This document shows, in pieces, positions 1-14,013 of a stretch of DNA of 35,976 nucleotides. Origin of the DNA: Muribaculaceae bacterium (GTDB lineage Bacteria > Bacteroidota > Bacteroidia > Bacteroidales > Muribaculaceae); the NCBI GenBank assembly GCA_023667285.1, contig JAMPAK010000001.1:319064-355039 (forward strand). The letters are read 5' to 3'. Made by a program: the position numbers and the translations under genes. Each line of letters begins with the position of its first letter. Position 1 is the first letter of the stretch. The notes below the pieces were generated by a model. The model ran no database searches. It was not told the origin of the DNA and saw only the letters and a list, made by a program, of their open reading frames with translations.

Positions 1-645
1 CGTGTGGATGGTCGTGGGGTCTACTCGTTCTGCATGTGTCCCGGCGGATTCATCATCCCGGCTGCCAGCGCCCACGGCCAACTGGTTGTCAACGGCATGT
101 CCCCCTCCGGCCGCAACACCCGCTGGGCCAACTCCGGCATGGTTGTCGAGATTCTCCCTGAGGATATCCCCGACGGCGACGGCGTGGAAGGACATGTGCT
201 GAAAATGATGCACTTCCAGGAGATGATTGAGAGAGCATTCTGGGAGGAAGCACGACACACTCAGAACGCACCAGCCCAAAGAATGACCGATTTCGTGAAC
301 TCAAAACCCTCTGAGTCCCTTCCATCCACATCATATCCCCCCGGCATACACCCGGCCCGCATCGACAGGCTGCTCCCCAAGATGATATCCCGCCGTCTGC
401 AGGAAGGATTCAAGGAATTCGACCGCAAGAACAAGGGCTTCCTCACCCCTGAGGCCACACTCATCGGAGCAGAGACCAGGACATCATCTCCCGTCAGAGT
501 CCCCCGCCAGCCAGATACTCTCTCTCACGTCCGCATCGAGGGCCTGTTCCCTTGCGGCGAAGGAGCCGGTTATGCCGGAGGAATCGTCTCCGCTGCCATC
601 GACGGAGACCGCGTGGCCGATGCCGTGAGCAGTTATATCGGTTAA
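1..645 (+). CDS. FAD-dependent oxidoreductase, COG2509-like (C-terminal part)
   Basis: The reading frame is open from the first base of the window, so the gene is cut by the left edge and only the last 214 or so residues are present. The fragment has a YSFCMCPGG motif near its start, as in the family of uncharacterised FAD/NAD(P)-dependent dehydrogenases (COG2509). It ends with a flavin-binding GLFPCGEGAGYAGG segment followed by SAAIDGDRVADAV, the classical C-terminal FAD contact of such flavoproteins. The N-terminal Rossmann motif lies outside the window. The substrate is unknown for this family. Its stop codon shares a TTAA with the stop codon of rsgA on the other strand, so the two genes converge with essentially no spacer and no terminator is visible between them. 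Confidence 0.85.
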   Translation, partial: RVDGRGVYSFCMCPGGFIIPAASAHGQLVVNGMSPSGRNTRWANSGMVVEILPEDIPDGDGVEGHVLKMMHFQEMIERAFWEEARHTQNAPAQRMTDFVNSKPSESLPSTSYPPGIHPARIDRLLPKMISRRLQEGFKEFDRKNKGFLTPEATLIGAETRTSSPVRVPRQPDTLSHVRIEGLFPCGEGAGYAGGIVSAAIDGDRVADAVSSYIG

Positions 646-1592
646 TACCCCTTTCGATACTTGTCATCCTCCGAGTCCTCGAGGATAGACAGATAGGAGG
701 CATAGCGCGACTCTGAGATGAAATGATTCTCCACAGCCTCCTTCACCGCACATCCCGGCTCATGCGTGTGTGTGCAGTCTCCATATCGGCAATCCTTCCC
801 TATGCTGAATATCTCCGGAAAGAAATGACCCACCTCATGGCGGTCAAACTCGAGTGTGCCAAACCCCTTCACCCCCGGAGTATCTATAATAAAGGTGCCA
901 TTCTCCATTCCAGGCACAGCAAACATCTCTGAGAAGGTTGTCGTGTGCATCCCGGTGTCGTGGATAGACGATATCTCCGCCGTAGCCAACTCTATCCCAG
1001 GGATGAGAGCATTGATCAGAGTAGACTTCCCCACGCCTGAATTGCCCGAGAAAAGAGTGGTCTTCCCGTCAAGAACACCGCGGAGGGTGTCCAGCCCTTC
1101 ACCCGTACGAGCTGAGATAGGTATCACCTTATAGCCGATAGAACTATATAGGTTGATGACAGCTCCGAGATACTCCATGGCCTCCTCATCCCCCTCCAGA
1201 AGATCAATCTTGTTTATGACAATCACCGCCGGAACCCTATATGCCTCAGCCGTAGCCAGAAAACGGTCTATAAAAGTCGTGGAAGTCGTGGGATGGGAAA
1301 GTGTCACCACCAGACACACCTGATCAAGGTTTGCAGCAAGTATATGAGCCTGCTTGGAGAGATTGCTCGACCGGCGTATTATATAATTGCGCCTCGGGGT
1401 TATTGAAATAATATATGGTGTCTCCCCACCCGCAGCGTCCGTTATGGTGACATGGTCACCAACAGCCACGGGATTGGTCGTCCGTATCCCCTTCAGTCTG
1501 AAGTTACCCTTGATTCTGCAGGTCATCTCGCGCCCCTCATCTGTGAGCACCACATAAGCCGCTCCTGTATTTTTAATTACAATTCCAGTCAT
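642..1592 (-). CDS. rsgA: Ribosome small-subunit-dependent GTPase RsgA
   Basis: 316 residues, normal length. RsgA is a circularly permuted GTPase that checks late maturation of the 30S subunit. The permuted order is visible: an N-terminal OB-fold (about 1-75), then G4 NKID (127-130), then the P-loop GNSGVGKS (183-190), then G3 DTPG (237-240). The switch region contains IHDTGMHTTT. The C-terminal zinc site is C268, C273, H275 and C281. The start codon overlaps the stop of gluQ as ATGA, so the two are co-transcribed and probably translationally coupled. Nothing is missing. Confidence 0.97.
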   Translation of the reverse strand: MTGIVIKNTGAAYVVLTDEGREMTCRIKGNFRLKGIRTTNPVAVGDHVTITDAAGGETPYIISITPRRNYIIRRSSNLSKQAHILAANLDQVCLVVTLSHPTTSTTFIDRFLATAEAYRVPAVIVINKIDLLEGDEEAMEYLGAVINLYSSIGYKVIPISARTGEGLDTLRGVLDGKTTLFSGNSGVGKSTLINALIPGIELATAEISSIHDTGMHTTTFSEMFAVPGMENGTFIIDTPGVKGFGTLEFDRHEVGHFFPEIFSIGKDCRYGDCTHTHEPGCAVKEAVENHFISESRYASYLSILEDSEDDKYRKGY

Positions 1593-2536
1593 ATATCGGC
1601 AATGATATTCCCTTGAGGGATTTTGCTACAATCATATAAACATAACAAATCCGTCGGCGAAATGGATGAAGGCTCAGGAATCAATCCGGCCATATGAGCC
1701 AGATAGCCCGACAGTTCATTTGCCGACATCCTGAGACGCAAACTCTCCATGCTCATCGACTTGTCGCGCTTCGACAATCTCTGTCCGTCCTTATTGCAGA
1801 CAAGAGGCAGATGGACATACCTTGGGTCTCTCAGCCCCAGCAGCCGCCTCAGATACACCTGCTGCGCTCCTGACAGCAAAAGGTCACACCCCCTCATCAC
1901 TTCATTCACACCCATAAGCGCATCATCTACAGTGACAGCCAGCTGATATGACCAAGCCCCGTCTGCACGGCGCACTATGAAATCGCCACACTCACGCGCC
2001 AGGTTATAACGCTGACAGCCATACACACCATCCTCATACTCAATCTCCTCATCAGGAACAAAAAGCCTTACCGACCCTGGACCAGGCATGGACGCTGACG
2101 GAAACTGAGCCGGACGGCATGTCCCGGCATAAACCACCCGCCCGTCACTCTGATGAGGGGCACTCGCAGCCATTATGTCAGCGCGTGTGCAGTGGCAGGC
2201 ATAAGTATATCCCGTCCTTACAAGCTGTTTGAAGAACTCCTCATAGATATCCCTCCGAAGGCTCTGCATATAAGGGCCATGTGGGCCCACACCCTCAACT
2301 CCACCCTCATCCCAGTCCAATCCGAGCCACCTGAGGTCATCCTCAATCATCCTGGCATACTCCAACCGAGAGCGCTGCGGATCCAGATCCTCGATACGTA
2401 GAATCCACCGCCCCCCTCTCGACCTTACAGAAAGCCACGAGAGAAGCGCGGTAAACATATTGCCCAGATGCATACGGCCTGAGGGGGACGGCGCAAACCG
2501 CCCCACCGGCAACGTGGCACTCTTTTCAGATTTCAT
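1589..2536 (-). CDS. gluQ: Glutamyl-Q tRNA(Asp) synthetase
   Basis: A catalytic-core-only paralogue of glutamyl-tRNA synthetase that in characterised bacteria transfers glutamate to queuosine in tRNA(Asp). About 315 residues, with no anticodon-binding domain, as expected for GluQRS. Motifs: GRFAPSPSG then HLGN (23-26, the HIGH box), IEDLDPQR, a zinc-ligand CHCTRAD segment, and LSKRDKS (the KMSKS equivalent). I chose the ATG at 2536 (MKSEKS) over an upstream in-frame codon at 2560, because conserved sequence begins only about ten residues later. A GTG at 2506, just before GRFAPSP, is also possible because a -7-like box sits at 2542-2549. First gene of a two-gene operon with rsgA. Confidence 0.93.
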   Translation of the reverse strand: MKSEKSATLPVGRFAPSPSGRMHLGNMFTALLSWLSVRSRGGRWILRIEDLDPQRSRLEYARMIEDDLRWLGLDWDEGGVEGVGPHGPYMQSLRRDIYEEFFKQLVRTGYTYACHCTRADIMAASAPHQSDGRVVYAGTCRPAQFPSASMPGPGSVRLFVPDEEIEYEDGVYGCQRYNLARECGDFIVRRADGAWSYQLAVTVDDALMGVNEVMRGCDLLLSGAQQVYLRRLLGLRDPRYVHLPLVCNKDGQRLSKRDKSMSMESLRLRMSANELSGYLAHMAGLIPEPSSISPTDLLCLYDCSKIPQGNIIADI

Positions 2537-2541
2537 GGCTG

Positions 2542-2549
2542 CAAATTTA
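2542..2549 (-). promoter_or_regulatory. Candidate -7 box for gluQ-rsgA
   Basis: On the minus strand this reads TAAATTTG, a match to the Bacteroidetes -7 element TAnnTTTG. No convincing TTTG -33 element lies 19-20 nt upstream. Transcription would begin at about the ATG at 2536, so the mRNA would be leaderless or use the GTG at 2506. Weak on its own. Confidence 0.35.
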
Positions 2550-2654
2550 CTCAAAAACAACGTCCACAGAAAATTTTTGAAAATTTTTCAGAAAAACAGG
2601 GTTACATTCTCCGATTTCCGTCATATATCTTATGTAAACCGCTCTCAACCATTA

Positions 2655-3212
2655 ATGGAAACTCTTATCTGTCCCGAAGACCAAAAGCTGATTGAAGCAC
2701 TCCGAAACGGCCTCCCCGAGGAGACACGGGAGTTCTTCTACGAAGACCTCTGGGCAATGATTGAGACCATCCGGCTCAAACTCTTTCAGGGAAAGCCTGA
2801 CCACAACGACCTTGTGAGCGAACTTTACATACACCTCTCTGCAGGAGACTGGCGAAAACTTGACACCTTCACCGGCCGTGGCGGCTGCCGCCTGAAGTCA
2901 TGGGTATCAATCATCGCATGGCGCTTCTTCATCCTTCGATGCGCTCAGGCAATCCCCTCAGAGGCCATCGTCGACGAGACAGAGGTCTCCGACGAGCATT
3001 CGAGCGACGACTCAGACATGCAGACAGTCATGGATGTTAGAAACGTGCTTGAGCGCATGCCCAACCGCCGATATGCCCGAATCCTCTCGATGCTCATGCT
3101 CGAGGGATTCTCTCCCAAAGAGACTGCCGACGCCCTGGGCACCAACACCGCCAATATCTATAATATGAAACGCCGGGCCATAGACCAGTTTATCAAATGT
3201 TTTGATTCATGA
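2655..3212 (+). CDS. Sigma-70 family (ECF-like) RNA polymerase sigma factor
   Basis: 185 residues from ATG 2655, typical of small sigma-70 family regulators. Residues about 30-95 look like region 2 (DHNDLVSELYIHL, then a tryptophan-rich LKSWVSIIAWRFF helix). Residues about 130-185 look like a region 4 helix-turn-helix (LERMPNRRYARIL, GFSPKETADALG, IYNMKRRAIDQF). The frame is open further upstream to 2460, but that part overlaps gluQ on the other strand and lacks family character. It lies 151 bp upstream of the caspase gene, which has its own -7 box, so the two are neighbours but may be separately transcribed. No strong TAnnTTTG box is seen upstream of this gene. Its regulon is unknown. Confidence 0.82.
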   Translation: METLICPEDQKLIEALRNGLPEETREFFYEDLWAMIETIRLKLFQGKPDHNDLVSELYIHLSAGDWRKLDTFTGRGGCRLKSWVSIIAWRFFILRCAQAIPSEAIVDETEVSDEHSSDDSDMQTVMDVRNVLERMPNRRYARILSMLMLEGFSPKETADALGTNTANIYNMKRRAIDQFIKCFDS

Positions 3213-3319
3213 CCGGCGACATACACACACCACACGCTTTTTCCAGGGAGGACGCCGCCACGGGTGTCCTCCCAATCGTTTTTTCCTCGTTTTATGCCAT
3301 AGATTCAGCAGGAATTTAC

Positions 3320-3327
3320 TACCTTTG
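3320..3327 (+). promoter_or_regulatory. -7 box (TACCTTTG) for the caspase-sigma-CHAT operon
   Basis: TACCTTTG matches the Bacteroidetes TAnnTTTG element exactly and lies 36 bp before the ATG at 3364, giving a leader of roughly 30 nt. Upstream TTTT/TTTA at about 3290 is a poor -33 match at a long spacing, so promoter strength is uncertain. It separates the upstream sigma gene from the four-gene ATGA-linked operon. Confidence 0.6.
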
Positions 3328-3363
3328 CATATCACACACACAACACACATCCTGAAGACACAG

Positions 3364-4248
3364 ATGAAACACCTGCATATACTGCTCATACTCCTGGCAA
3401 TGCTGCTTCCCATCCAGAGCCACTCACGCACCAAAAGGGCTCTGGTGATAGGCCTCGGCGAGCAGCAAGACCCCTCATGGATCAAAATCAACGGCGACAA
3501 GGATGTCCCGCTCGTCGAGGCTATGCTGAGGGCCAACGGTTTCACCGAAATCTCGACCCTCATCAACTCCAAGGCCACAAAGAAAGGTATTGTCAAGGGG
3601 CTATCCACCCTCGCATCACGCGCAAAGAACGGAGACATCATATATATCCACTTCTCAGGTCACGGTCAAAAGATGACAGATATCGACGGCGATGAGACTG
3701 ACGACCCCTGGGACGAGTCGTGGATCCCCTATGACGCCTACCGGGCATATTGCCTCAAAGACAGAGGCGAGAAACATCTCTCAGACGATGAACTCGACGA
3801 CATGCTCACAATCATCGCCGGAAAGGTCGGCTCCCAAGGCTCTGTCGTGGTCACCGTCGATGCATGCCACAGCGGCGACGCCACCCGCGGGCCTAAGGAG
3901 AGACTGACAGTTGTCCGTGGCGTCCGAGACAGATTCATCATACCGGGCAGCGATTTGATGGCTGACAAAACAAACCGGAAAGAGAGGACTCAGACACCAT
4001 GGGTTACACTCAGCGCATGCCGAGACTACCAGCTCAATGCCGAGAACCCCCTCGGATTCGGCAGCCTCACATATGCCCTCCACGAACTTTGGCCCACTCT
4101 CTCCGGCATCACTGACAACTCTCTTCTCGTCAAAACCATAGCCTCTCAAATCCGCAAGAGCGGCATCGGTCTTGAAGTCCCCCAAACACCTGAGATCTCA
4201 GGAGACCCATCCCGTCCCTTCTCCGTCATCTTTGCCCCTCTCCAATGA
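3364..4248 (+). CDS. Exported caspase-like (C14/metacaspase-type) protease
   Basis: 294 residues from ATG 3364, which directly precedes a classical signal peptide (MKHLHILLILLAMLLP, cleavage expected near residue 22); the frame is open upstream but without signal-peptide logic. The mature protein starts with ALVIGLGEQQ, the first caspase-fold strand. It carries the catalytic dyad: His100 in HFSGHGQK and Cys168 in VDACHSGDATRG. An acidic stretch (DGDETDDPWDESW) follows the His. DACHSG with an acidic pocket is metacaspase-like, a group that cleaves after Arg/Lys; this preference is inference. No prodomain or death-fold adaptor is fused. The stop overlaps the next start (ATGA at 4245-4248). It is predicted periplasmic. 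Confidence 0.9.
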   Translation: MKHLHILLILLAMLLPIQSHSRTKRALVIGLGEQQDPSWIKINGDKDVPLVEAMLRANGFTEISTLINSKATKKGIVKGLSTLASRAKNGDIIYIHFSGHGQKMTDIDGDETDDPWDESWIPYDAYRAYCLKDRGEKHLSDDELDDMLTIIAGKVGSQGSVVVTVDACHSGDATRGPKERLTVVRGVRDRFIIPGSDLMADKTNRKERTQTPWVTLSACRDYQLNAENPLGFGSLTYALHELWPTLSGITDNSLLVKTIASQIRKSGIGLEVPQTPEISGDPSRPFSVIFAPLQ

Positions 4249-4886
4249 CAGCCCCCCCACCCTCCGATGCCATCCTCGTGAGAGCATTCACGAGCGGCAA
4301 CAAACGTCTCCAGGCCATCTGCTACAGGAAATGCCGAGCCACATTCGACAAAATCTCTCGATACTTCAAAGCCTCCGAGCAAGACCTCGACGACCTATTT
4401 CATGAGTCATTCGAGGCACTGTGGAGCTCAATTGACTCCGGCGCAATCTTTGTTGAAGGCTCAGGAGTCAAGGCCCTGAGGAGCGATGGCATCACAAATC
4501 CTATCAATGACCTGACAGGCGCCTATTTTGCCGGAATTGTCCGATTCAAGTTCCTGGAATACTGCCGTCGCCACGACCGGATTGCTGTATTCGACGACAA
4601 GGCCCTCCCTGAGGCCGTCGACCTCCCGCCTGACGAGACTATTGATGAAGACATCGACACCATCAAAGACCGTCTCACCCTCATCTCTCTCAACTCACTG
4701 GCAAAAAGCTGCATAGATATCCTTACTAAATTCTACCACGAGAGCAAATCGCTCCAAGAGATACTGGCCGAGCGACCCGAAAACAACTCCTACGACGGTC
4801 TAAAATCGCAAAAGGCCAAATGCCTGAAGACACTCAAAGAGAAAATCATCATCCTATTCAAGGCCCACGGCCTCACCCCACCATGA
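4245..4886 (+). CDS. Sigma-70 family (ECF-like) sigma factor of the caspase/CHAT operon
   Basis: 213 residues. A region 2-like segment is seen at residues about 10-110 (DLDDLFHESFEALW, then FAGIVRFKFLEYCRRHDR), with an insertion between the helices around residues 60-85. Residues about 150-205 could form region 4 (SCIDILTKFYHESKSLQEIL, then QKAKCLKTLKEKI), though the helix-turn-helix is divergent. It is distinct in sequence from the sigma-like gene at 2655. Start and stop both overlap neighbours by ATGA, so translation is coupled to the caspase upstream and to the membrane protein downstream. The downstream membrane protein is the obvious candidate for its anti-sigma factor. Confidence 0.78.
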   Translation: MTAPPPSDAILVRAFTSGNKRLQAICYRKCRATFDKISRYFKASEQDLDDLFHESFEALWSSIDSGAIFVEGSGVKALRSDGITNPINDLTGAYFAGIVRFKFLEYCRRHDRIAVFDDKALPEAVDLPPDETIDEDIDTIKDRLTLISLNSLAKSCIDILTKFYHESKSLQEILAERPENNSYDGLKSQKAKCLKTLKEKIIILFKAHGLTPP

Positions 4887-5581
4887 CATACACACCTGAA
4901 CAAGACAGACAAGAACATATTGACCGCTTTCTTCTGGGGCACATGACTCCCGAGGAAGAGAAAGGATTCAAACGGCAACTCACCTCTGACCGGCAACTCG
5001 CCGATGATGTCTGCATCATGCGTCGCATCATGAAGGCAATCTCGCTCAGAGCATCCCGCCGTGAATGTATGGAACGCTGGGACAACGAGGACAAAGCCCC
5101 TGCAACAACGTCCACCTCCTCGGGACGGAGACGTTGGATGCCTTGGATATCCGCCGCAGCCATTGTGGCCGTCATCCTTACAGCCGGCTCCATATTCTTT
5201 ATCCAAGAAAAAACGGAGTTCCGGTCAGCAGCCACACGGTTGAGCGCCCAAGCCACCCCGGGAAACTATCGAGGCGAGAGTGTTGAGACAAGGCAGATCG
5301 AACATCAGATCAACTCTCTGCGCAAGGAGGCACGGTTCACCCTATCAGACATCGACTCCAATCTTGAGCACTCTATGGTCGAGAAGGGTCTGCGGCCCCA
5401 GGAAGCCGCCTATCAGCAGATTATGATAGACCGCGAGAGATACGAACTGACATGGCTCCGCATCAAAGCCCTGATCTCCGCAGGGCAAATACGGGAGGCT
5501 AAATCCGAACTTCAGAAATATGCAGCCGAGGAAGGCTACAATCAGGAAGCCGCTAAATCACTCCTCAAACAATTTGAATGA
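4883..5581 (+). CDS. Single-pass membrane protein, putative anti-sigma factor
   Basis: 232 residues from ATG 4883. The N-terminus (IDRFLLGHMTPEEEKGFKRQL, then a helical RRIMKAISLRASRR segment) resembles the start of membrane anti-sigma factors, which often read 'LLGELSPEE...'. It lacks the HxxxCxxC zinc-binding signature of ZAS-type factors. A basic SGRRRW stretch precedes one transmembrane helix at about residues 88-107 (MPWISAAAIVAVILTAG), which puts the N-terminus in the cytoplasm. The remaining 125 residues would be periplasmic, mostly helical and rich in Arg/Lys/Glu, with no recognised fold. It sits between the sigma gene and the CHAT gene with ATGA overlaps on both sides. The anti-sigma role is inferred from position, topology and the N-terminal motif. 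Confidence 0.68.
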   Translation: MTYTPEQDRQEHIDRFLLGHMTPEEEKGFKRQLTSDRQLADDVCIMRRIMKAISLRASRRECMERWDNEDKAPATTSTSSGRRRWMPWISAAAIVAVILTAGSIFFIQEKTEFRSAATRLSAQATPGNYRGESVETRQIEHQINSLRKEARFTLSDIDSNLEHSMVEKGLRPQEAAYQQIMIDRERYELTWLRIKALISAGQIREAKSELQKYAAEEGYNQEAAKSLLKQFE

Positions 5582-8358
5582 AAAAGATAATTGCCGCCAT
5601 CACAGCCACTATAGCCATCACGCTTGCTGTGACTCCCGCATCAGGAAATGCCGGAGACATAACTCAGACAGCTACTGACACCGACTCATTGGCAGCCACG
5701 GCTCTCTCCCTTGAAGAGCAAGCCACCGAGGCCGACAACAGCGCCCGTTTCGAGGACGCATACGCGCTCTACAACCGCAGCCTCGACTTATACAAGACCA
5801 TCGGCGACTGGGCCTCTGCGGCCAGGGCACTCCTCAAAATCGCCACGGTAGAGGACCGCCTTTTCCGCATGGAGTCATCTGTGTCAACTCTCAATGCAGC
5901 CGAGCAGGCTGCACGCATAAGCGGCGATGAGGCACGCCTCTTCGAGATTCTCGTGAGAGAAAAAAAGACTGCCCGCACCCTCAACAGATACTCAGACTAT
6001 CTCAGGGCATCCACGTCAATCGACTCCCTCGCCGGAAACTCATCAGACATAGCCATCAGGCGCGAGGCCATCGCAGACCTTGCTGAGACCGCCGAGGAGG
6101 CTGGCGATCTAGACAAAGCCATCAGGATATATAACGGCTTGCTCGAATGGCAAGACTCCATGCCTCAATCACAGCAACGTGATGTCGTGATAACATCAGT
6201 CCTCGACAAACTGGCATATCTGAATCTCGACAACGGCGATTTTGAAAAGTCGCTCGAGGCAGCCCGCAGGAACGTTAAGATGAAAAAGTCCGGCGACACC
6301 AAGAGCCCCATCGGACTGGCTCTCACATATCATCGTCTGTCATCCACATATGCCGCCATGAAAGACACTGCCATGGCCGTGAACTACGCCGACTCCATCC
6401 TCCATGTGGCATCAGAGACTGAGCAGCCATTCTACAAGGCATACATGAACCTCCTGGGCGGCGTCTCATTCAAGCAGACAGACTCCCTCGAGAGATCCGT
6501 GGAATGCTACACACGAGCCATGGAATATCCTGGGCTTGAAATCTCAGCCCATGGCCTCATCGGAAACGTCTACCACCGTCTTGGAGGCAAGGAGAAAGCC
6601 CTCGAACACTTTCAGAAATATGCCGAGCTCAACCTGGCCCGCTATGGCGAGAGATCGGTGGAATATGCATCCGCCCTCCGCCATGTCGCCAACATGAAAG
6701 CATTCAACGGCGACCTCGAGGGTGGATGCGAGGCTTACATGAACTCCATAGCCATCTCTCACGACAATCTCCGCGAGAGACTCAGATTTATTCCATCAGG
6801 CATGAGGGAGAGCCTCCTGAGAGATCTCACAGAGTCCTTGTCTCTGATGACACCTTTCGGCATCTCCTCCGGCCACATAAACGACAATTTCACCACCAAG
6901 GCCTACGAGGGGCTTCTCCTCACCAAGGGACTTCTCCTCGCTTCAGACCAGTCCACCGCAGGACTGATCCAGGCTCACGGATCTCCCGATGACAAGGCCG
7001 ACTATGCCGAGATTCAGCGACTGAAAAACCGCATCGAGGTGATGCAGGGAAACCCGGAGCTGGCCGACTCCGTCCCAAGCCTCTACCACAGGCTCCTGAC
7101 CATCGACAACCGCCTTGCCTCCAAATGCACCCGTTATGGCGATATAGGAGCATTTGCCTCAACCACTTACAAGGATATCTCCAATGCTCTGGGCGACAAA
7201 GACCTCCTAGTCGACTTCACAGACTATGAGATGAATGACGGTGGCAAGCAGTATGCGGCCTTCATCATCCGAAAAGGAATGGAGGCTCCAATGCTCATCC
7301 CCGTCTGCCGTCAGGCCCAGATAGACTCTCTACTCGAGGCAAACGACAGTTTCATCAGCCGCCTCTATGAAGATGAGGCCGGAGAGTCACTCCGCGCCCT
7401 CTGCTTTGACCCCATAACAACCCACGCCAACGAGGGGGGAAGACTATACATTGTCCCCTCAGGTTCATTGTATTCCATATCATTCGCCGCCATTCCGCTT
7501 GATGCCAACACTATTGCCGGAGAGAAATATTCCATCTCCAGGCTCTCATCTGCCCGATGCCTGCTTGATTCCACAAAAATTTCTGACAGACGCTCCGCAA
7601 TGCTCTATGGTGGCATAACTTACAATATGGACGACAACGAACTCGCTCTTGCAAGCATCCCGGTCGACGACTATATGGCAGCCGCGTTTGTCCCGCGCAG
7701 TCCGGCGGTTCACTCTGATACTCTTCCCTATCTCCCCTACACCCTCACCGAGGTCAAAGCCATCGCCGCCCTCCTCTCTGACTCCGTTTCCACCGTCACG
7801 CCTCTAACAGGCAAGAAAGCCACTGAAGCATCATTCATCTCACTCTCAGGCCACTCCCCTGCCATACTCCACATTGCCACCCACGGATTCTACTTCGACC
7901 CCGATGACCACGAAAAAGCAAAAGGCCTGTCAGGAATAACAGACCCCATGAACCTAAGCGGATTGGTGATGTCTGGAGGTAATGCCGAATGGACAGGCCA
8001 GCAATTGCCCCCCACCACTCTCGGCGGACTCCTCACCGCAGCCGATATTGCCCGTTGCGACCTCTCAGGCACATCGCTCGTCTGTCTCTCGGCCTGCAAC
8101 ACTGCCCGCGGATCCTCAGCCACATCCGAAGGGCTCTATGGCCTGCAGCGAGCCTTCAAGAAAGCCGGAGCCGGAACCCTCGTGATGAGCCTTTGGGAAG
8201 CAAGCGAGCTCTCCACGTCAATCTTCATGAACAGTTTCTATAAGAACCTGGTGTCCAACGGCTTCAAAAGACACGCTGCCTTTAGGGCTGCCAGAGCCGA
8301 AGTGCGTCGGCAATTCCCCGAGCCATACTATTGGGCCGGATTCGTCATGGTCGACTGA
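5578..8358 (+). CDS. Exported TPR-CHAT caspase-superfamily protein
   Basis: 926 residues. A signal peptide (MKKIIAAITATIAITLAVTP, cleavage near residue 24) is followed by TPR-like helical repeats over about residues 40-400 (e.g. ARFEDAYALYNRSLDLYKTIG, GDLDKAIRIYNGLLEW, GGKEKALEHFQKYAELN), a linker, and a CHAT domain over about residues 540-925. The CHAT hallmarks are intact: YIVPSGSLYSISFAAIP, His769 in HIATHGFY, Cys840 in LSACNTARG, and AFKKAGAGTLVMSLWEA near the end. CHAT proteins are caspase-related and include separase-like bacterial proteases such as Csx29. The start overlaps the stop of the membrane protein (ATGA at 5578-5581). The signal peptide implies action in the periplasm, unlike cytosolic Csx29. 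Substrate unknown. Confidence 0.9.
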   Translation: MKKIIAAITATIAITLAVTPASGNAGDITQTATDTDSLAATALSLEEQATEADNSARFEDAYALYNRSLDLYKTIGDWASAARALLKIATVEDRLFRMESSVSTLNAAEQAARISGDEARLFEILVREKKTARTLNRYSDYLRASTSIDSLAGNSSDIAIRREAIADLAETAEEAGDLDKAIRIYNGLLEWQDSMPQSQQRDVVITSVLDKLAYLNLDNGDFEKSLEAARRNVKMKKSGDTKSPIGLALTYHRLSSTYAAMKDTAMAVNYADSILHVASETEQPFYKAYMNLLGGVSFKQTDSLERSVECYTRAMEYPGLEISAHGLIGNVYHRLGGKEKALEHFQKYAELNLARYGERSVEYASALRHVANMKAFNGDLEGGCEAYMNSIAISHDNLRERLRFIPSGMRESLLRDLTESLSLMTPFGISSGHINDNFTTKAYEGLLLTKGLLLASDQSTAGLIQAHGSPDDKADYAEIQRLKNRIEVMQGNPELADSVPSLYHRLLTIDNRLASKCTRYGDIGAFASTTYKDISNALGDKDLLVDFTDYEMNDGGKQYAAFIIRKGMEAPMLIPVCRQAQIDSLLEANDSFISRLYEDEAGESLRALCFDPITTHANEGGRLYIVPSGSLYSISFAAIPLDANTIAGEKYSISRLSSARCLLDSTKISDRRSAMLYGGITYNMDDNELALASIPVDDYMAAAFVPRSPAVHSDTLPYLPYTLTEVKAIAALLSDSVSTVTPLTGKKATEASFISLSGHSPAILHIATHGFYFDPDDHEKAKGLSGITDPMNLSGLVMSGGNAEWTGQQLPPTTLGGLLTAADIARCDLSGTSLVCLSACNTARGSSATSEGLYGLQRAFKKAGAGTLVMSLWEASELSTSIFMNSFYKNLVSNGFKRHAAFRAARAEVRRQFPEPYYWAGFVMVD

Positions 8359-8427
8359 CGGTCCAACACATTAGCAATCCACTCGCCCCCCACATCCATC
8401 CCCACTCACAACCGCAGGCAGCAAACG

Positions 8428-8541
8428 GCGTCCGGAGGACGCAGATTTACTCGTAACCCCCGGTCATGCGAGCCTCCTACAGGGGGCGAGGATGCCCGGG
8501 GTAACCGGGGAACAAATAGAAACGGCGCCCGTAGGCCGCCG
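8428..8541. repeat. Composite palindromic (REP-like) intergenic element
   Basis: Three inverted repeats in tandem. The first is a perfect 6-bp stem with a GGA loop at 8428-8442 (gcgtcc/ggacgc). The second is a long imperfect palindrome at 8453-8505 (gtaacccccgg... against ...cccggggtaac). The third is an 8-bp stem with one mismatch at 8523-8541 (cggcgccc/ggccgccg). The outer hairpins begin with the same aacggcg, so the element looks like two related hairpins bracketing a GC-rich core. It is reminiscent of dispersed intergenic repeats seen in Bacteroidales; only one copy is visible here, so repeat status is inference. It could also end transcription of the CHAT operon, although no T-tract follows. 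Confidence 0.5.
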
Positions 8542-8601
8542 AAAACCATCCCGCAGACCCCATATCCGCATTATCGCACTACCAAACACACATCTCATTC
8601 A

Positions 8602-8609
8602 TACCTTTG
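8602..8609 (+). promoter_or_regulatory. Upstream -7-like box (TACCTTTG) in the lptD leader
   Basis: Exact TAnnTTTG match about 350 nt upstream of the lptD start, without a clear -33 element. If used, it would produce a long leader containing the boxA-like sequence at 8802-8821 and would make lptD a two-promoter gene. No ORF with coding character follows it directly. Confidence 0.35.
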
Positions 8610-8801
8610 CTCATCCTCAAACCCGACACGAACATAGCGCCCGACGAACCACCACCCACCATCGTCATCACCCTCCCCGTCAGGTTGCCCCCCTTATCGC
8701 CACCTACACTTCCGTCAACCTCATCAACCTCCACCTCCCCTCCACACCCACTCTAGCAGTGCGCCGTGCTCCGCGACCCAAAGTCAAACCGCACGGCAAG
8801 C

Positions 8802-8821
8802 GCTCTTTGACATTTTGGAAA
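8802..8821 (+). promoter_or_regulatory. boxA-like sequence (gctctttgacattttggaaa)
   Basis: This resembles the 'CTTTGACATATTGGAA'-type sequence found in Bacteroidetes rRNA leaders upstream of 16S genes, and the wider boxA antitermination consensus (TGCTCTTTAACA). No rRNA gene follows; lptD does. The similarity is recalled from memory and short, so function is speculative. Confidence 0.3.
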
Positions 8822-8875
8822 CCCTCCCCGCCTGATGGCTATTTGTTAATTTCTGTTGGCAGAATCGTGGGTAAG

Positions 8876-8906
8876 TTGGCGAATTGATAATTATTCAGTA
8901 AATTTG
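8876..8906 (+). promoter_or_regulatory. lptD promoter (TTGG -N19- TAAATTTG)
   Basis: The -7 element TAAATTTG lies at 8899-8906 and a TTG -33 element at 8876-8878, with the expected spacing of about 19 nt. Transcription would start at about 8913, which argues against the GTG at 8911 as the translation start and favours the TTG at 8959. Confidence 0.6.
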
Positions 8907-8958
8907 CACGGTGTTTCGGCCAGCCGTGACACCTCGACAACAAACCGGACGACTCAAA

Positions 8959-11889
8959 TTGAGGAAATCTCAGATATATATTATCTTATTGGTGCTACTT
9001 TGCGCAGCCAGCATGGGAACTTTTGCTCACCCTGATGGTCGCGCACAGATAGAATCCCCCATATCTGAGCCAATAGTAGCCACAGAGACAATCGCCGAGC
9101 CTGACACACTGACAAAGCCCCTGACAGTCATGCAGATTGCGCCCGGTAAGACTATTGCTCCCGATAGTTCATCCATGGTCACAACCATCGACTCCGTCAG
9201 GACAGACTCCATACTCCCAATTGACTCCATCTCACACCTTCCGGTCAGACATATCGCTGAGATTGACACAACGAAACGCACACGCCTGAGCCGCCGTCGC
9301 ATCAACACACAGCGCGATTCCATCAAGATTGTCCGCACAAAAGTGGACCTCGACAATCCGGTCGACTATTCTGCCCGTGACTCCCTCGTGCTTCTCGGGC
9401 GAAATATCGCCTACATGTATGGAGCAAGCCAGGTCATCTATGGCAAAATCAAACTTGACGCCGAAGAAATCAAGATGAACCTTGACAGCACAACGGTCTA
9501 TGCTGTCGGTGTCCCTGACTCTCTCGGCGAGATAGTCGGTTCACCCGTCTTCGACGACAACGGAACAAGCTATGAGGCCAAGGCTATGACCTATAACTTC
9601 GATACAGAGTATGGCTACATCACCAATGTGATAACACAGCAAGGCGAGGGCTATCTCACGGGAGGAAGATCTAAAAAGGTTGACGAGAACACTTTCTATC
9701 TTGCCGATGGCCGCTACACCACATGCGATGACCATGATCACCCACACTTCTATCTCCAACTCACAAAAGCCAAGGTGCGCCCCGGCAAAGACGCCGTCAT
9801 TGGCCCGGCATACATGGTGCTCTCCGGACTCCCCCTGCCCCTCGCCGTCCCCTTCGGCTACTTTCCCTTCTCCGACAAGTATTCCTCCGGTATAATCTTC
9901 CCCACATTTGGCGACGACTACAACCGAGGCTACTATCTCAGTGATGGTGGCTACTATTTTGCCATCAACGACAACGTTGACCTGGCCCTCACAGGCGAAC
10001 TCTACACTCTGGGATCTTGGGGACTTAGAGCCCAATCAGCCTATCTCAAAAGATACAAGTTCAACGGTTCCTTCAACGTCTCCTACATCAAGACCATAAC
10101 AGGCGACAAGGGAATGCCTGACTACTCCAAGGCCACTAACTTCCAGGTGTTGTGGAACCATACACAGGACTCTAAGGCCAACCCCAACGTAAGTTTCTCG
10201 GCCTCAGTCAACTTCACAACCTCCGGCTACTCGCGCAATGACCTCGGATCCTATTACTCAAACTCTTTTACAGAAAACACCAAGAGTTCAACAGTCAACC
10301 TGACCTACAGAATCCCCAACTCTAAATGGTCTATCTCCTCTACCGCAAACATCTCCCAGAGGTCGCAGGACTCCACCCTGGCCGTCTCATTCCCCAACTT
10401 TACCATCACCATGTCCCAGCTCTACCCTTTCAAGCGCAAGAGAGCCGTGGGAGCCGAGAAATGGTATGAGAAAATTAAACTCTCCTATTCCGGACAGTTC
10501 AACAACTCGCTGACCTCGAAGCAGGACGAGTTTTTCAAAAAGAGCCTCATCAAGGACTGGAGAAACGGCATGAAGCACTCCATCCCCATCTCGGCTACAT
10601 TCAATGTATTGAAATACTTCAATATTACCCCCTCTATCAATGTCACCGACAGAATGTACACCTCAAAAGTGAGACGCCAATGGGATCCAAACGCCTCCGC
10701 CGAGGTACTAGACACCACCTACAGCCTCTACAACGTGTGGGACTTCTCAGCAGCCGTGTCAGGATCGACCAAAATCTATGGCTTCTTCCAGCCGCTGCCA
10801 TTCCTGGGTGACAAGGTGAAGATGATCCGATATGTGCTCACCCCTACCGTCTCATTCTCAGGTGCTCCTGACTTCGGGTCGAAATTCTTCGGATATTACG
10901 ACTCCTATCAGTACACCAACGCCCGCGGCGAACTTGTCACCAGAGACTATTCCCTCTTCCCCAACTCTATGTTTGGAGTACCCGGGCGAGGCAAGAACGG
11001 CTCATTAAGCTTCTCCCTCTCCAACAATCTTGAGATGAAAGTGCGTTCAGACAACGACTCCATCGGTGAGAAAAAAATCTCCCTCATCGAGAATCTCTCG
11101 CTGAGCCAGAGCTACAACTTCGCGGCAGACTCAATGAGATGGTCTAACCTGAACACCTCAATCATGCTGCGGCTCATCAAGAACTTCAATCTCAATCTCT
11201 CAGCCACCTGGGATGTCTACATGTATGCACTGAACGCAGCCGGCAACCCCGTGAGAGTAAACAAACTCCGGCTCACACACGGCAAAGGCTGGGGCAAACT
11301 CTCGAGCACCGGAACATCCTTCAGCTACACCTTCAACAACGACACGTTCAAAAAACTCTTTGGCGGAGGTGACGACAATGACAAGGATAAAGACAAGGAC
11401 AAAGGAAACGAAACCGAGAGCCAACTATTTGCCGAAGACACTTCCGACTACGAAGACTCCCGGGACGCCGCCCCGGGAAACGGCAAGAAAAACGGAATCA
11501 AGATTGGCTCAAACGGCTACATGAAATGGAATGTCCCATGGAGCCTCACATTCAACTATTCAGTCAACTACGGCTATGGAGAGTTTGACTATAAGAAACT
11601 GGAATACAAAGGTAAAATAACACAGAACCTTTCGTTCTCAGGAAACCTCCGTCCCACTTCAAACTGGAACATCGGATTTTCGGCATCTTACAACTTCGAC
11701 ACCCACAAACTCGCCTACATGAACTGCAACATCACACGCGACATGCACTGCTTCGCCATGCGAGCCAGCTTCGTCCCCGTAGGCCCATATAAGAGTTACA
11801 ACTTTCACATTTCAGTCAAGTCATCACTGCTTGCCGACCTGAAATACGACAAGCGCTCATCTCTGTCAAACGGTGTGAAATGGTACTGA
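8959..11889 (+). CDS. lptD: LPS-assembly outer-membrane protein LptD
   Basis: About 976 residues from TTG 8959. The frame is open back to a GTG at 8911, but that codon coincides with the predicted transcription start and would give an overlong n-region. From 8959 the protein begins RKSQIYIILLVLLCAA, a good signal peptide. An OstA/LptA-like beta-jellyroll follows (NPVDYSARDSLVLLG, VIYGKIKLDAEEIKMNLDS, GYLTGGRSKKVDE). Then comes the LptD beta-barrel (GPAYMVLSGLPLPLAVPFG, YFPFSDKYSSGIIFPTFGDD and alternating aromatic strands to the C-terminal NGVKWY). LptD inserts lipopolysaccharide into the outer leaflet. A periodic Asp/Lys insert (DDNDKDKDKDKG) lies in a late loop. It converges with yqgE. Confidence 0.93.
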   Translation: MRKSQIYIILLVLLCAASMGTFAHPDGRAQIESPISEPIVATETIAEPDTLTKPLTVMQIAPGKTIAPDSSSMVTTIDSVRTDSILPIDSISHLPVRHIAEIDTTKRTRLSRRRINTQRDSIKIVRTKVDLDNPVDYSARDSLVLLGRNIAYMYGASQVIYGKIKLDAEEIKMNLDSTTVYAVGVPDSLGEIVGSPVFDDNGTSYEAKAMTYNFDTEYGYITNVITQQGEGYLTGGRSKKVDENTFYLADGRYTTCDDHDHPHFYLQLTKAKVRPGKDAVIGPAYMVLSGLPLPLAVPFGYFPFSDKYSSGIIFPTFGDDYNRGYYLSDGGYYFAINDNVDLALTGELYTLGSWGLRAQSAYLKRYKFNGSFNVSYIKTITGDKGMPDYSKATNFQVLWNHTQDSKANPNVSFSASVNFTTSGYSRNDLGSYYSNSFTENTKSSTVNLTYRIPNSKWSISSTANISQRSQDSTLAVSFPNFTITMSQLYPFKRKRAVGAEKWYEKIKLSYSGQFNNSLTSKQDEFFKKSLIKDWRNGMKHSIPISATFNVLKYFNITPSINVTDRMYTSKVRRQWDPNASAEVLDTTYSLYNVWDFSAAVSGSTKIYGFFQPLPFLGDKVKMIRYVLTPTVSFSGAPDFGSKFFGYYDSYQYTNARGELVTRDYSLFPNSMFGVPGRGKNGSLSFSLSNNLEMKVRSDNDSIGEKKISLIENLSLSQSYNFAADSMRWSNLNTSIMLRLIKNFNLNLSATWDVYMYALNAAGNPVRVNKLRLTHGKGWGKLSSTGTSFSYTFNNDTFKKLFGGGDDNDKDKDKDKGNETESQLFAEDTSDYEDSRDAAPGNGKKNGIKIGSNGYMKWNVPWSLTFNYSVNYGYGEFDYKKLEYKGKITQNLSFSGNLRPTSNWNIGFSASYNFDTHKLAYMNCNITRDMHCFAMRASFVPVGPYKSYNFHISVKSSLLADLKYDKRSSLSNGVKWY

Positions 11890-11918
11890 TCTCCCTCAAC
11901 CTGAGTAGAAAGATCAGT
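11885..11918. terminator. Inverted repeat between convergent lptD and yqgE
   Basis: A perfect 8-bp inverted repeat, actgatct (11885-11892) and agatcagt (11911-11918), spans the 3' ends and includes both stop codons. It could act as a bidirectional terminator, but there is no T-tract on either side and the stem is AT-rich, so the call is weak. Confidence 0.35.
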
Positions 11919-12516
11919 TAGCCATAATGTTCTTGGGATGATAGAGCCATCCCTTGAAGTCAGGCCCAAGCCGATTCACAGCCCGATGCCACACCTTGCT
12001 ATAGTCATCGCTGAGAAGGTCATCGGCAGACCTCAGGTCTGTCACAGCCCATACACGCTGGGCAATCTCGTTCTCCAACTGACCGCTTGTCCAGCCACTG
12101 TAGCCCATGAAAAAGCGGATGCGTCCGCTAATGTCATAACCGTCATTGATGATAGAGAGCATTACATCAAAATCGCCCCCAAGCCACAGCCCCTCACCTA
12201 TCGGAGACGCCCCAGGAATAAGATCGCCCAGAGTGTGGAGGAAATAAAGTCTGTCGCTCCCAACGGGGCCGCCACAGAACACAGGAATAGGCTCCTCGAC
12301 TTTAACACCCTCAATCACCTCCTGGAGTTTGTAGTCAGTGGGATTGTTGACCACCACCCCCATGGCTGACTGACCGGGCTCATAGTCGACCATCACAATC
12401 ACAGCATGATTGAAATATGACTCCCTTAGGAAAGGCTCTGCCACCAGCAGACTCCCTACAGCGGGTTCATAACCCGTCGGGATGTCGATGTTGAAGAGGA
12501 AGGATTTACGTTTCAT
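11914..12516 (-). CDS. YqgE/AlgH family protein
   Basis: 200 residues, the normal length for the UPF0301/AlgH family. Diagnostic segments are GSLLVAEPFL near the N-terminus, GVVVNNPTDYKL, VFCGGPVGSDRLYFLH, WLGGDFDVML and FMGYSGWTSGQLENEI. The family's biochemical role is unsettled (linked to alginate regulation in Pseudomonas). The start is the only good ATG, preceding MKRKSFLFNIDIPTGYEPAVG. A minus-strand TTTG-N18-TAGATTTG at 12730-12759 could drive it with a long leader of about 210 nt that would overlap the fba leader; this is tentative. Convergent with lptD. Confidence 0.92.
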   Translation of the reverse strand: MKRKSFLFNIDIPTGYEPAVGSLLVAEPFLRESYFNHAVIVMVDYEPGQSAMGVVVNNPTDYKLQEVIEGVKVEEPIPVFCGGPVGSDRLYFLHTLGDLIPGASPIGEGLWLGGDFDVMLSIINDGYDISGRIRFFMGYSGWTSGQLENEIAQRVWAVTDLRSADDLLSDDYSKVWHRAVNRLGPDFKGWLYHPKNIMAN

Positions 12517-12675
12517 ACTATATAAACCCCACAGAAAGCAGGAAATATTACCACGCTGATGTTAAAAATCGTTAAGCACCGACACATTCAAGCAAAATTT
12601 CGTTTCACCGAAAACATTTACGCTCACATTAACATTATTTTCACGGGGCTGATGATAGTTTTGCAAAAATTTTCC

Positions 12676-12683
12676 TAACTTTG
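12676..12683 (+). promoter_or_regulatory. -7 box (TAACTTTG) for fba
   Basis: TAACTTTG is a strong match to the Bacteroidetes -7 element, 75 bp upstream of the aldolase ATG. The nearest TTTG (12660-12663) is only 12 nt away, too close for a standard -33 element. A leader of about 70 nt, A-rich just before the start codon, is implied. Confidence 0.55.
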
Positions 12684-12758
12684 CGTCAGCAAGCAGCCCC
12701 AGCGGCGCAATACTCAGGATAAGAATCATCAAATCTATATAACCAAATAGTTAAACAA

Positions 12759-13760
12759 ATGGTAAATTACAAGGAATTAGGTCTTGTGAACACCCGTGAG
12801 ATGTTTGCAAAGGCTATCAAGGGTGGCTATGCAGTCCCCGCCTTCAACTTCAACAACATGGAGCAACTCCAGGCTATCATCAAGGCAGCCGCTGAGGAGA
12901 AATCACCCGTTATCCTCCAGGTTTCGAAGGGCGCACGCAACTATGCCAACCCCATCCTTCTCCGCTACATGGCTCAGGGCGCTGTCGAGTATGCAAAGAG
13001 CCTCGGCTGGGAGCATCCCCAGATTGTGCTCCATCTCGACCATGGTGACTCATTTGAACTCTGCAAGGACTGCATCGAGCACGGCTTCTCATCTGTGATG
13101 ATCGACGGCTCACACCTCCCTTATGAGGAGAATGTAGCCCTCACAAAGAAAGTATGCGACTACGCTCACCAGTATGACGTGACCGTTGAGGGTGAGCTCG
13201 GCGTTCTTGCCGGTGTTGAGGATGAGGTCTCATCTGACCACCACACCTACACCGACCCCAACGAGGTTATCGACTTCGCCACACGCACAGGTGTTGACTC
13301 ACTCGCCATCTCAATCGGCACAAGCCACGGCGCATACAAGTTCAAGCCCGAGCAGTGCACACGCGACCCGAAGACTGGCCGTCTGATTCCCCCTCCCCTT
13401 GCATTCGACGTTCTCGAGGCAGTTCAGGAGAAGCTCCCCAACCTCCCCATCGTGCTCCACGGATCATCATCAGTTCCACAGGATGAGGTCGACACCATCA
13501 ACAAGTATGGCGGCAAGCTCCCCGACGCCATCGGCATCCCCGAAGAAGAGCTCCGCAAGGCTGCTAAGATGGATGTCTGCAAGATCAACATCGACTCTGA
13601 CAGCCGTCTGGCCATGACCGCCGCAGTGCGCAAGACACTCGCCGAGCATCCTGAGGAGTTTGACCCCCGCAAGTATCTCGGCCCCGCTCGCGACAACATG
13701 GAGAAACTCTACAAGCACAAGATTGAGGCTGTGCTTGGCTCTGCCGGCAAAGCTGAATAA
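12759..13760 (+). CDS. fba: Fructose-bisphosphate aldolase, class II
   Basis: 333 residues. This zinc-dependent glycolytic enzyme splits fructose-1,6-bisphosphate into dihydroxyacetone phosphate and glyceraldehyde-3-phosphate in the cytoplasm. Signature segments: YAVPAFNFNNMEQ near residue 25, the metal-binding LHLDHGD, EGELGVLAGVEDE, the substrate-binding GTSHGAYKF and VLHGSSSVP, and KINIDSDSRLA near the C-terminus. The start follows an A-rich leader with no Shine-Dalgarno, usual for this phylum. Codon use is strongly biased, consistent with high expression. A strong terminator follows. Confidence 0.96.
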   Translation: MVNYKELGLVNTREMFAKAIKGGYAVPAFNFNNMEQLQAIIKAAAEEKSPVILQVSKGARNYANPILLRYMAQGAVEYAKSLGWEHPQIVLHLDHGDSFELCKDCIEHGFSSVMIDGSHLPYEENVALTKKVCDYAHQYDVTVEGELGVLAGVEDEVSSDHHTYTDPNEVIDFATRTGVDSLAISIGTSHGAYKFKPEQCTRDPKTGRLIPPPLAFDVLEAVQEKLPNLPIVLHGSSSVPQDEVDTINKYGGKLPDAIGIPEEELRKAAKMDVCKINIDSDSRLAMTAAVRKTLAEHPEEFDPRKYLGPARDNMEKLYKHKIEAVLGSAGKAE

Positions 13761-13789
13761 GCGATTATTCGCACATACTATCTAATCTC

Positions 13790-13846
13790 AAGAGGGAGCG
13801 TCATTAAAGTAATCATGACGTTCCCTCTTCGATTCCCTGTTTTTTA
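13790..13846 (+). terminator. Rho-independent terminator after fba
   Basis: A 15-bp stem (aagagggagcgtcat against atgacgttccctctt, one G-U pair) closes a 10-nt loop at 13790-13829. A T-rich run including TTTTTT follows after about 10 nt. It separates fba from rpsU. Confidence 0.8.
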
Positions 13847-13876
13847 ATTTGTTTGGCTCGTTTTTGAAAGAAATAT

Positions 13877-13907
13877 TTTGCCAAGTCGGGAGAAATTTGT
13901 AATTTTG
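13877..13907 (+). promoter_or_regulatory. rpsU promoter (TTTG -N19- TAATTTTG)
   Basis: The -33 element TTTG at 13877-13880, a 19-nt spacer and the -7 element TAATTTTG at 13900-13907 match the Bacteroidetes primary-sigma consensus. The predicted transcription start near 13914 gives rpsU a leader of about 100 nt. Confidence 0.75.
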
Positions 13908-14013
13908 CACCGCAGTTTGTGGAAACACAGGCTGTACAGACAAACAAATACATTCACCCGGCTGAGACTCCATTGAGGTAAGGCCACAATTCAAACAATC
14001 AAGAAACACTAAA

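Follow-up and report, generated by a model that had tools for sequence, protein, structure and literature searches.

A caspase–CHAT protease pair with predicted export signals, encoded with an ECF sigma factor and an anti-sigma-like membrane protein

We analyzed a 35,976-nucleotide stretch of DNA from a Muribaculaceae bacterium (assembly GCA_023667285.1, contig JAMPAK010000001.1, positions 319,064 to 355,039; hereafter the window), in which four consecutive genes at 3364–8358 encode a caspase-like protease, an extracytoplasmic function (ECF) sigma factor, a single-pass membrane protein resembling an anti-sigma factor, and a protease that combines tetratricopeptide repeats (TPRs) with a CHAT domain. 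In most discussions, caspase-like and CHAT proteases of bacteria figure as intracellular effectors of defence or death. We found that the gene set recurs in 14 loci from five families of the order and that both proteases carry predicted signal peptides, which had not been noticed in an earlier note on this DNA. That note proposed a proteolysis-controlled sigma switch, and such a switch remains the best reading. In the form that we somewhat favour, the genes make up an envelope-to-gene signalling unit, in which the exported clan CD proteases would cut the membrane anti-sigma factor and so free the ECF sigma factor. The finding would be a recurrent exported caspase–CHAT pair tied to an ECF switch, with one specific residue implicated. 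If correct, it would assign a role to many CHAT and caspase genes of Bacteroidota that are as yet uncharacterised, reveal anti-sigma factors to be substrates of a new class of site-1 protease, and provide a non-CRISPR counterpart to the link between Csx29 and a sigma factor.

The four open reading frames (ORFs; 3364–4248, 4245–4886, 4883–5581, and 5578–8358, all on the plus strand and uninterrupted) are joined by three 4 bp ATGA overlaps, as the earlier note had described, and an identical trio of 4 bp overlaps is present in a genome of the same genus (G104, locus L041). Genes were picked with a simple script, and transmembrane (TM) and export calls were made by simple hydropathy rules rather than by a trained predictor. 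Family, order, and class are kinship levels of the database, and the names Bacteroidales and Bacteroidota are inferred for the sampled relatives.

The second gene (4245–4886) encodes a protein of 213 residues with no signal peptide and no TM helix, as expected of a cytoplasmic protein. Its assignment as sigma-70-like is weak when the protein is taken alone (Sigma70_r2, 0.0012; NCBIfam sigma70-ECF, 2.5e-6; both below the cut-off). A 29-row family profile (A6) matched solved ECF sigma factors across regions 2–4 with a best E value of 4.7e-15; the matches, among them a sigma-H factor, SigW, and RpoE, covered profile positions 1–186 of 196 at E values of 5e-15 to 5e-11. Judged by these profile matches, the product is an ECF sigma factor. 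In the region 4 part, Cys156 and Cys193 are invariant in the 29 relatives aligned in A6.

The third gene (4883–5581) encodes a membrane protein of 232 residues. It matches the NCBIfam antisigma family below the cut-off (4e-8), and 17 of 33 family members match that model. Three features fit a membrane anti-sigma factor: a single TM helix, a predicted cytoplasmic N terminus, and a gene that adjoins the sigma gene with a 4 bp overlap. An AlphaFold2 model (mean predicted local distance difference test score 80.8, predicted template modelling score 0.41) places an N-terminal helical domain at residues 5–69, a TM helix at 87–119 (hydrophobic core 89–107), an unstructured linker at 119–133, and a periplasmic helical, TPR-like domain at 134–231. 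A TM helix was found in all 39 nonredundant relatives at a looser cut-off, and the charge distribution followed the positive-inside rule in 34 of 43 family members, with four ties, one of them the window protein, and five reversals. Anti-sigma relatives at L143, L215, L219, and L220 are about 365 residues long, and the periplasmic part of the L143 protein resembles, by eye, the start of a trypsin-type serine protease; proteins of this kind may be fusions of an anti-sigma factor and a protease. At L062 (4847–5332) and L063 (11924–12394), a membrane protein whose cytosolic part is almost absent adjoins CHAT and caspase genes and retains an Arg-Gly about 26 residues past its TM helix, and the outer half of the anti-sigma factor may there be used with other outputs.

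The first gene (3364–4248) encodes a protein of 294 residues with a predicted signal peptide followed by a p20 domain of the C14 family, metacaspase/orthocaspase type (Pfam Peptidase_C14, 2e-11); its profile matches Metacaspase-4, Metacaspase-1, and MCA2 at 4e-17 to 1e-14. The proposed catalytic dyad, His100 (3661–3663) and Cys168 (3865–3867), is invariant in 21 of 21 aligned caspases of the module class, as are Asp47 and Asp166. Sequence profiles indicate a p20 fold with a His/Cys dyad and an acidic S1 pair, and the caspase assignment is certain. In a profile comparison, Asp47 and Asp166 line up with the two Asp residues of TbMCA2, which two reports describe as accepting basic residues in substrate binding (PMC4357240, PMC6426788). 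From these S1 aspartates, cleavage by the window caspase is therefore predicted to follow Arg or Lys at P1. The protein shares its dyad and Asp pair with metacaspases and orthocaspases (C14B) and differs from them in its predicted export, in an Arg-Gly in the loop past the catalytic Cys, and in its linkage to sigma, anti-sigma, and CHAT genes.

That loop Arg-Gly is a candidate zymogen processing site. In animal caspases, processing occurs in the loop past the catalytic Cys, and in the window Arg185-Gly186 (3916–3921) lies 17 residues past Cys168. An Arg-Gly lies 13–23 residues past the catalytic Cys in all 21 module-class caspases, 12 of which are outside the seed alignment. More broadly, loop Arg-Gly was found in 38 of 52 exported and 2 of 19 nonexported caspases (p = 4e-6, with relatives not thinned and two caspases without a Cys column dropped). 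Exported caspases of about 570–710 residues (L073–L076, L107–L111) also have an Arg-Gly past the Cys, and for most of them the stretch read contains no sigma gene. On contigs labelled viral, L101–L106 carry short metacaspase-like genes that lack export signals.

The fourth gene (5578–8358) encodes a protein of 926 residues with a predicted signal peptide, TPRs at about 40–400, and a CHAT domain at 600–925 (Pfam CHAT, 8e-50). Here too the dyad named in the earlier note, His769 (7882–7884) and Cys840 (8095–8097), is invariant (10 of 10 module CHAT proteins), and the assignment as a TPR-CHAT protein is certain. Signal peptides were seen on the caspase in 12 of 12 loci and on the CHAT protein in 10 of 12, with N termini judged by eye and with the caspases of L042, L043, and L044 requiring a start codon internal to the called ORF. 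The signal peptides would therefore place both proteases across the membrane from the sigma factor, contrary to the cytoplasmic arrangement that the earlier note had implied.

If the four genes form one functional unit, they should be found together elsewhere, and they are. The complete set is present in 10 loci within the family (the window, L041–L046, L050, L057, and L058; neighbourhoods read) and in four others of the order. In the order sample of 393 genomes, 66 had a related caspase at E ≤ 1e-10; among the best 11 caspase-keyed loci besides the window, a CHAT gene was present in 10, sigma and anti-sigma genes were present in five, and all four genes were present in L064, L066, L070, and L072, with L071 having anti-sigma, caspase, and CHAT genes. 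The lowest identities to the window proteins are about 30% (caspase), 21% (CHAT), and 17% (sigma and anti-sigma). A chance neighbourhood is rejected by the 14 complete loci. The condition that the earlier note had named as refuting, an order not conserved beyond close relatives, does not hold for the gene set, although the exact order, caspase-sigma-anti-sigma-CHAT, is found in just seven of the 14 loci; the others have caspase-sigma-anti-sigma with CHAT convergent (one), sigma-anti-sigma-caspase-CHAT (two), CHAT-sigma-anti-sigma-caspase (two), or CHAT-caspase-sigma-anti-sigma (two). Such reshuffling with retention of all members argues for a functional set.

The set is patchy within the family: in a sample of 198 genomes, the CHAT query matched 45 and the sigma query nine. 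Pairwise identities of the four proteins co-vary across 12 loci (six of six pairs at p < 0.05 with the CHAT domain alone, five of six without L041, and four of six with the whole CHAT protein), and host kinship contributes to this co-variation. The source genome has one CHAT relative and one caspase of this kind. The module has no fixed genomic position: in G104 it lies on a different contig from lptD, and none of 16 lptD loci of the same genus had module genes within 1.5 kb. Phage cargo was rejected as an explanation, as one scan of viral contigs returned six loci with distant, nonexported caspases and no module.

We conclude that sigma, anti-sigma, and CHAT genes are the widespread core. A search with the anti-sigma profile matched 146 of 393 order genomes (E ≤ 1e-4) and 64 of 395 phylum genomes (E ≤ 1e-6), and the trio was present in 10 of the first 20 phylum loci read. 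Among 100 loci from order and phylum (L127–L226), 97 had an anti-sigma ORF with a TM helix, and a CHAT gene lay within about 7 kb in 50 of these. CHAT relatives occur in the family sample at about 0.1–0.2 per Mb, a density that serves as a guide to other families only roughly and that puts the chance expectation well under 1%. Caspase genes were rare at anti-sigma loci (none in one set of 40, one in the next 40), and the four-gene form was absent from the 18 loci read beyond the order, which account for 19 of the 48 places with a caspase hit at phylum level. In this sampling, the caspase is an addition confined to this order. The focus on four genes in the earlier note was thus too narrow, even though the set does recur. 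Of the 45 CHAT proteins that are complete in the anti-sigma loci, a signal-peptide-like start is present in 37 and a C-terminal TM helix in 41; such a helix would keep the catalytic domain on the outer side of the inner membrane. At phylum level, caspases accompany a weak sigma/anti-sigma pair at L112, and a caspase gene adjoins a CHAT gene at L108.

In the mechanism that we propose, the anti-sigma factor would use its N-terminal domain to keep the ECF sigma factor at the inner membrane, and both clan CD proteases would reach the periplasm by export. The TPR part of the CHAT protein would sense a signal that switches on cleavage of the anti-sigma factor after a linker Arg about 25 residues outside the membrane (Arg130-Gly131 in the window), and a site-2 protease and then cytosolic proteases would finish the anti-sigma factor and release the sigma factor. 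The genome has one M50 ORF with PF02163 matches as a candidate site-2 protease; the family is also present in 14 of 14 control genomes, so its presence here supports the model weakly. CHAT alone would make the first cut in the wider trio. Where a caspase carries the same Arg-Gly in its loop, CHAT may activate the caspase, or the caspase may be self-activating and either take part in the cut or amplify it. We infer the binding of the sigma factor, the assignment of cuts to proteases, the cascade, and the trigger. A more elaborate version is tentative, and we doubt it more than we believe it: a periplasmic cascade in which an initiator TPR-CHAT protease senses an envelope signal, cuts the anti-sigma factor as well as the caspase zymogen at one type of Arg-Gly site, and so converts an extracellular event into transcription, with a simpler CHAT–sigma form that is widespread and apparently undescribed in Bacteroidota, and with the caspase as an amplifier added in one order.

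Arg130-Gly131 (5270–5275), 22 residues past the TM core, is the candidate site-1 cleavage site, as judged from sequence and from the modelled linker. In a first set of 39 nonredundant anti-sigma proteins (five proteins more than 60% identical dropped), an Arg-Gly lay 12–36 residues past the TM helix in 24 (shuffle mean 1.6, maximum 7 over 2000). Several results weigh against the proposed mechanism. In a fixed test on 40 fresh loci, Arg-Gly did not track CHAT (6 of 23 versus 3 of 17, p = 0.71). In the same loci the linker could be seen to carry an Arg with a small residue, usually Ser, after it, and a wider motif, R[GSAD] at +15 to +40, was set down before the next 40 loci were read, with a stated mark of 85%. 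With three of these 40 loci dropped for want of an anti-sigma ORF with a TM helix, the motif was found in 15 of 18 CHAT- or caspase-linked loci (shuffle mean 3.4, maximum 9) and 14 of 17 CHAT-linked loci, just short of that mark, and in 12 of 19 unlinked loci (linked versus unlinked, p = 0.27). Agreement between caspase loop and linker across loci was also not significant (p = 0.07), although two pairs are suggestive: L092 has Lys-Gly in both places, and L094, which has Asn at position 47, lacks Arg-Gly in both. When the nonredundant proteins were pooled, including the loci that suggested the motif, an Arg at +20 to +31 was present in 34 of 42 CHAT-linked and 23 of 40 unlinked proteins (p = 0.03; 13 redundant anti-sigma proteins and three of 100 loci without an anti-sigma ORF with a TM helix dropped, and two caspase-linked loci without CHAT placed in neither group). 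The CHAT-linked scan peaked at 34, compared with a maximum of 24 across 1000 shuffles. The linker Arg is a trait of the family that is just modestly commoner with CHAT.

The main rival explanation reverses the direction of the pathway: the sigma/anti-sigma pair would sense the envelope as an ordinary switch does, with the exported proteases as outputs that act on different targets in the periplasm or at the surface, in self-damage, defence, or competition. Both proteases share the operon of the sigma factor in the window, target genes often adjoin ECF genes, and long exported caspases are commonly found with no sigma gene in the stretch read, which indicates other functions for exported caspases. 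We nevertheless consider this reading rather unlikely, since it leaves the conserved linker Arg unexplained and since, of the 10 CHAT-linked loci among the first 20 phylum loci, nine have their CHAT gene outside the sigma operon, on the other strand. The linker Arg might instead be read by another envelope protease, with CHAT and the caspase as adaptors or regulators of that step. The presence of the Arg in those 23 of 40 relatives without linked CHAT or caspase fits this explanation, as do the TPR domains, which are typical of adaptors, but the dyads of both proteases are invariant, which is unexpected in pure adaptors and makes the explanation improbable.

The earlier note had drawn a direct parallel with Csx29 and Csx30. 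In type III-E CASP systems, a TPR-CHAT protease, a sigma factor, and a sigma inhibitor are encoded together, and inhibitor cleavage is proposed to relieve inhibition (PMC10028731). The window groups the same kinds of parts, but a switch in which the protease cuts the inhibitor inside the cytoplasm is very improbable here: both proteases have signal peptides, the candidate for the inhibitor crosses the membrane once rather than being soluble in the cytoplasm, and a second, caspase-fold protease is present. The note's statement that CRISPR genes are absent held in so far as no regularly spaced repeat array was found in positions 1–14000 of the window and the genome showed no Cmr3; no search aimed at Cas7-11 was made. 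A CHAT profile searched against the PDB gave insignificant matches as its sole CHAT-protein hits (E = 0.02 and 0.06), none named Csx29. By analogy, proteolysis of the RseA/DegS type is best read as the closer model for our proposed signalling unit. As in the regulated intramembrane proteolysis of RseA and RsiW (DegS, then RseP), there is an ECF sigma factor, a single-pass anti-sigma-like protein, an expected outer site-1 cut, and an M50 protease in the genome; the site-1 candidates differ, being clan CD cysteine proteases (CHAT and caspase) here and DegS in the known system.

A full-text search for CHAT domain and anti-sigma together returned PMC10028731 only, and the nearest published statement is a proposal of proteolytic control for the ECF54 group, which has CHAT, subtilase, and carboxypeptidase neighbours (PMC8999054). 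As in ECF54, a CHAT gene lies in the neighbourhood of an ECF sigma gene in the window. ECF54 proteins (exemplar from Geodermatophilus) are described there as ECFs without an anti-sigma factor (PMC8999054), whereas the window unit has an anti-sigma-like protein. The arrangement was not described in the titles and abstract openings found by full-text search; an earlier mention in ECF reclassification is possible.

Upstream of the caspase gene, TACCTTTG at 3320–3327 (plus strand) agrees with the Bacteroidetes −7 element TAnnTTTG and from its sequence is likely to be the basal promoter of the operon; the G104 locus has TAACTTTG at a similar distance upstream of its caspase gene. A second ECF sigma-like ORF, sig0 (2655–3212, plus strand, 185 residues, with its own stop), lies directly upstream and was not mentioned in the earlier note. 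It matches Sigma70_r4_2 (3e-6) and sigma70-ECF (2e-9) in a scan that used a start 6 bases upstream of 2655. A gap of 151 bp separates it from the caspase gene, and it was not found at the G104 module locus; it is probably separate from the operon, with possibly an accessory role. At L052 (G140; 2311–4422), a partial sig0 homologue precedes a CHAT gene: a sig0-like N-terminal fragment abuts the middle of a TPR-CHAT gene, which suggests a locus that is decayed or misassembled, as if the intervening genes had been deleted.

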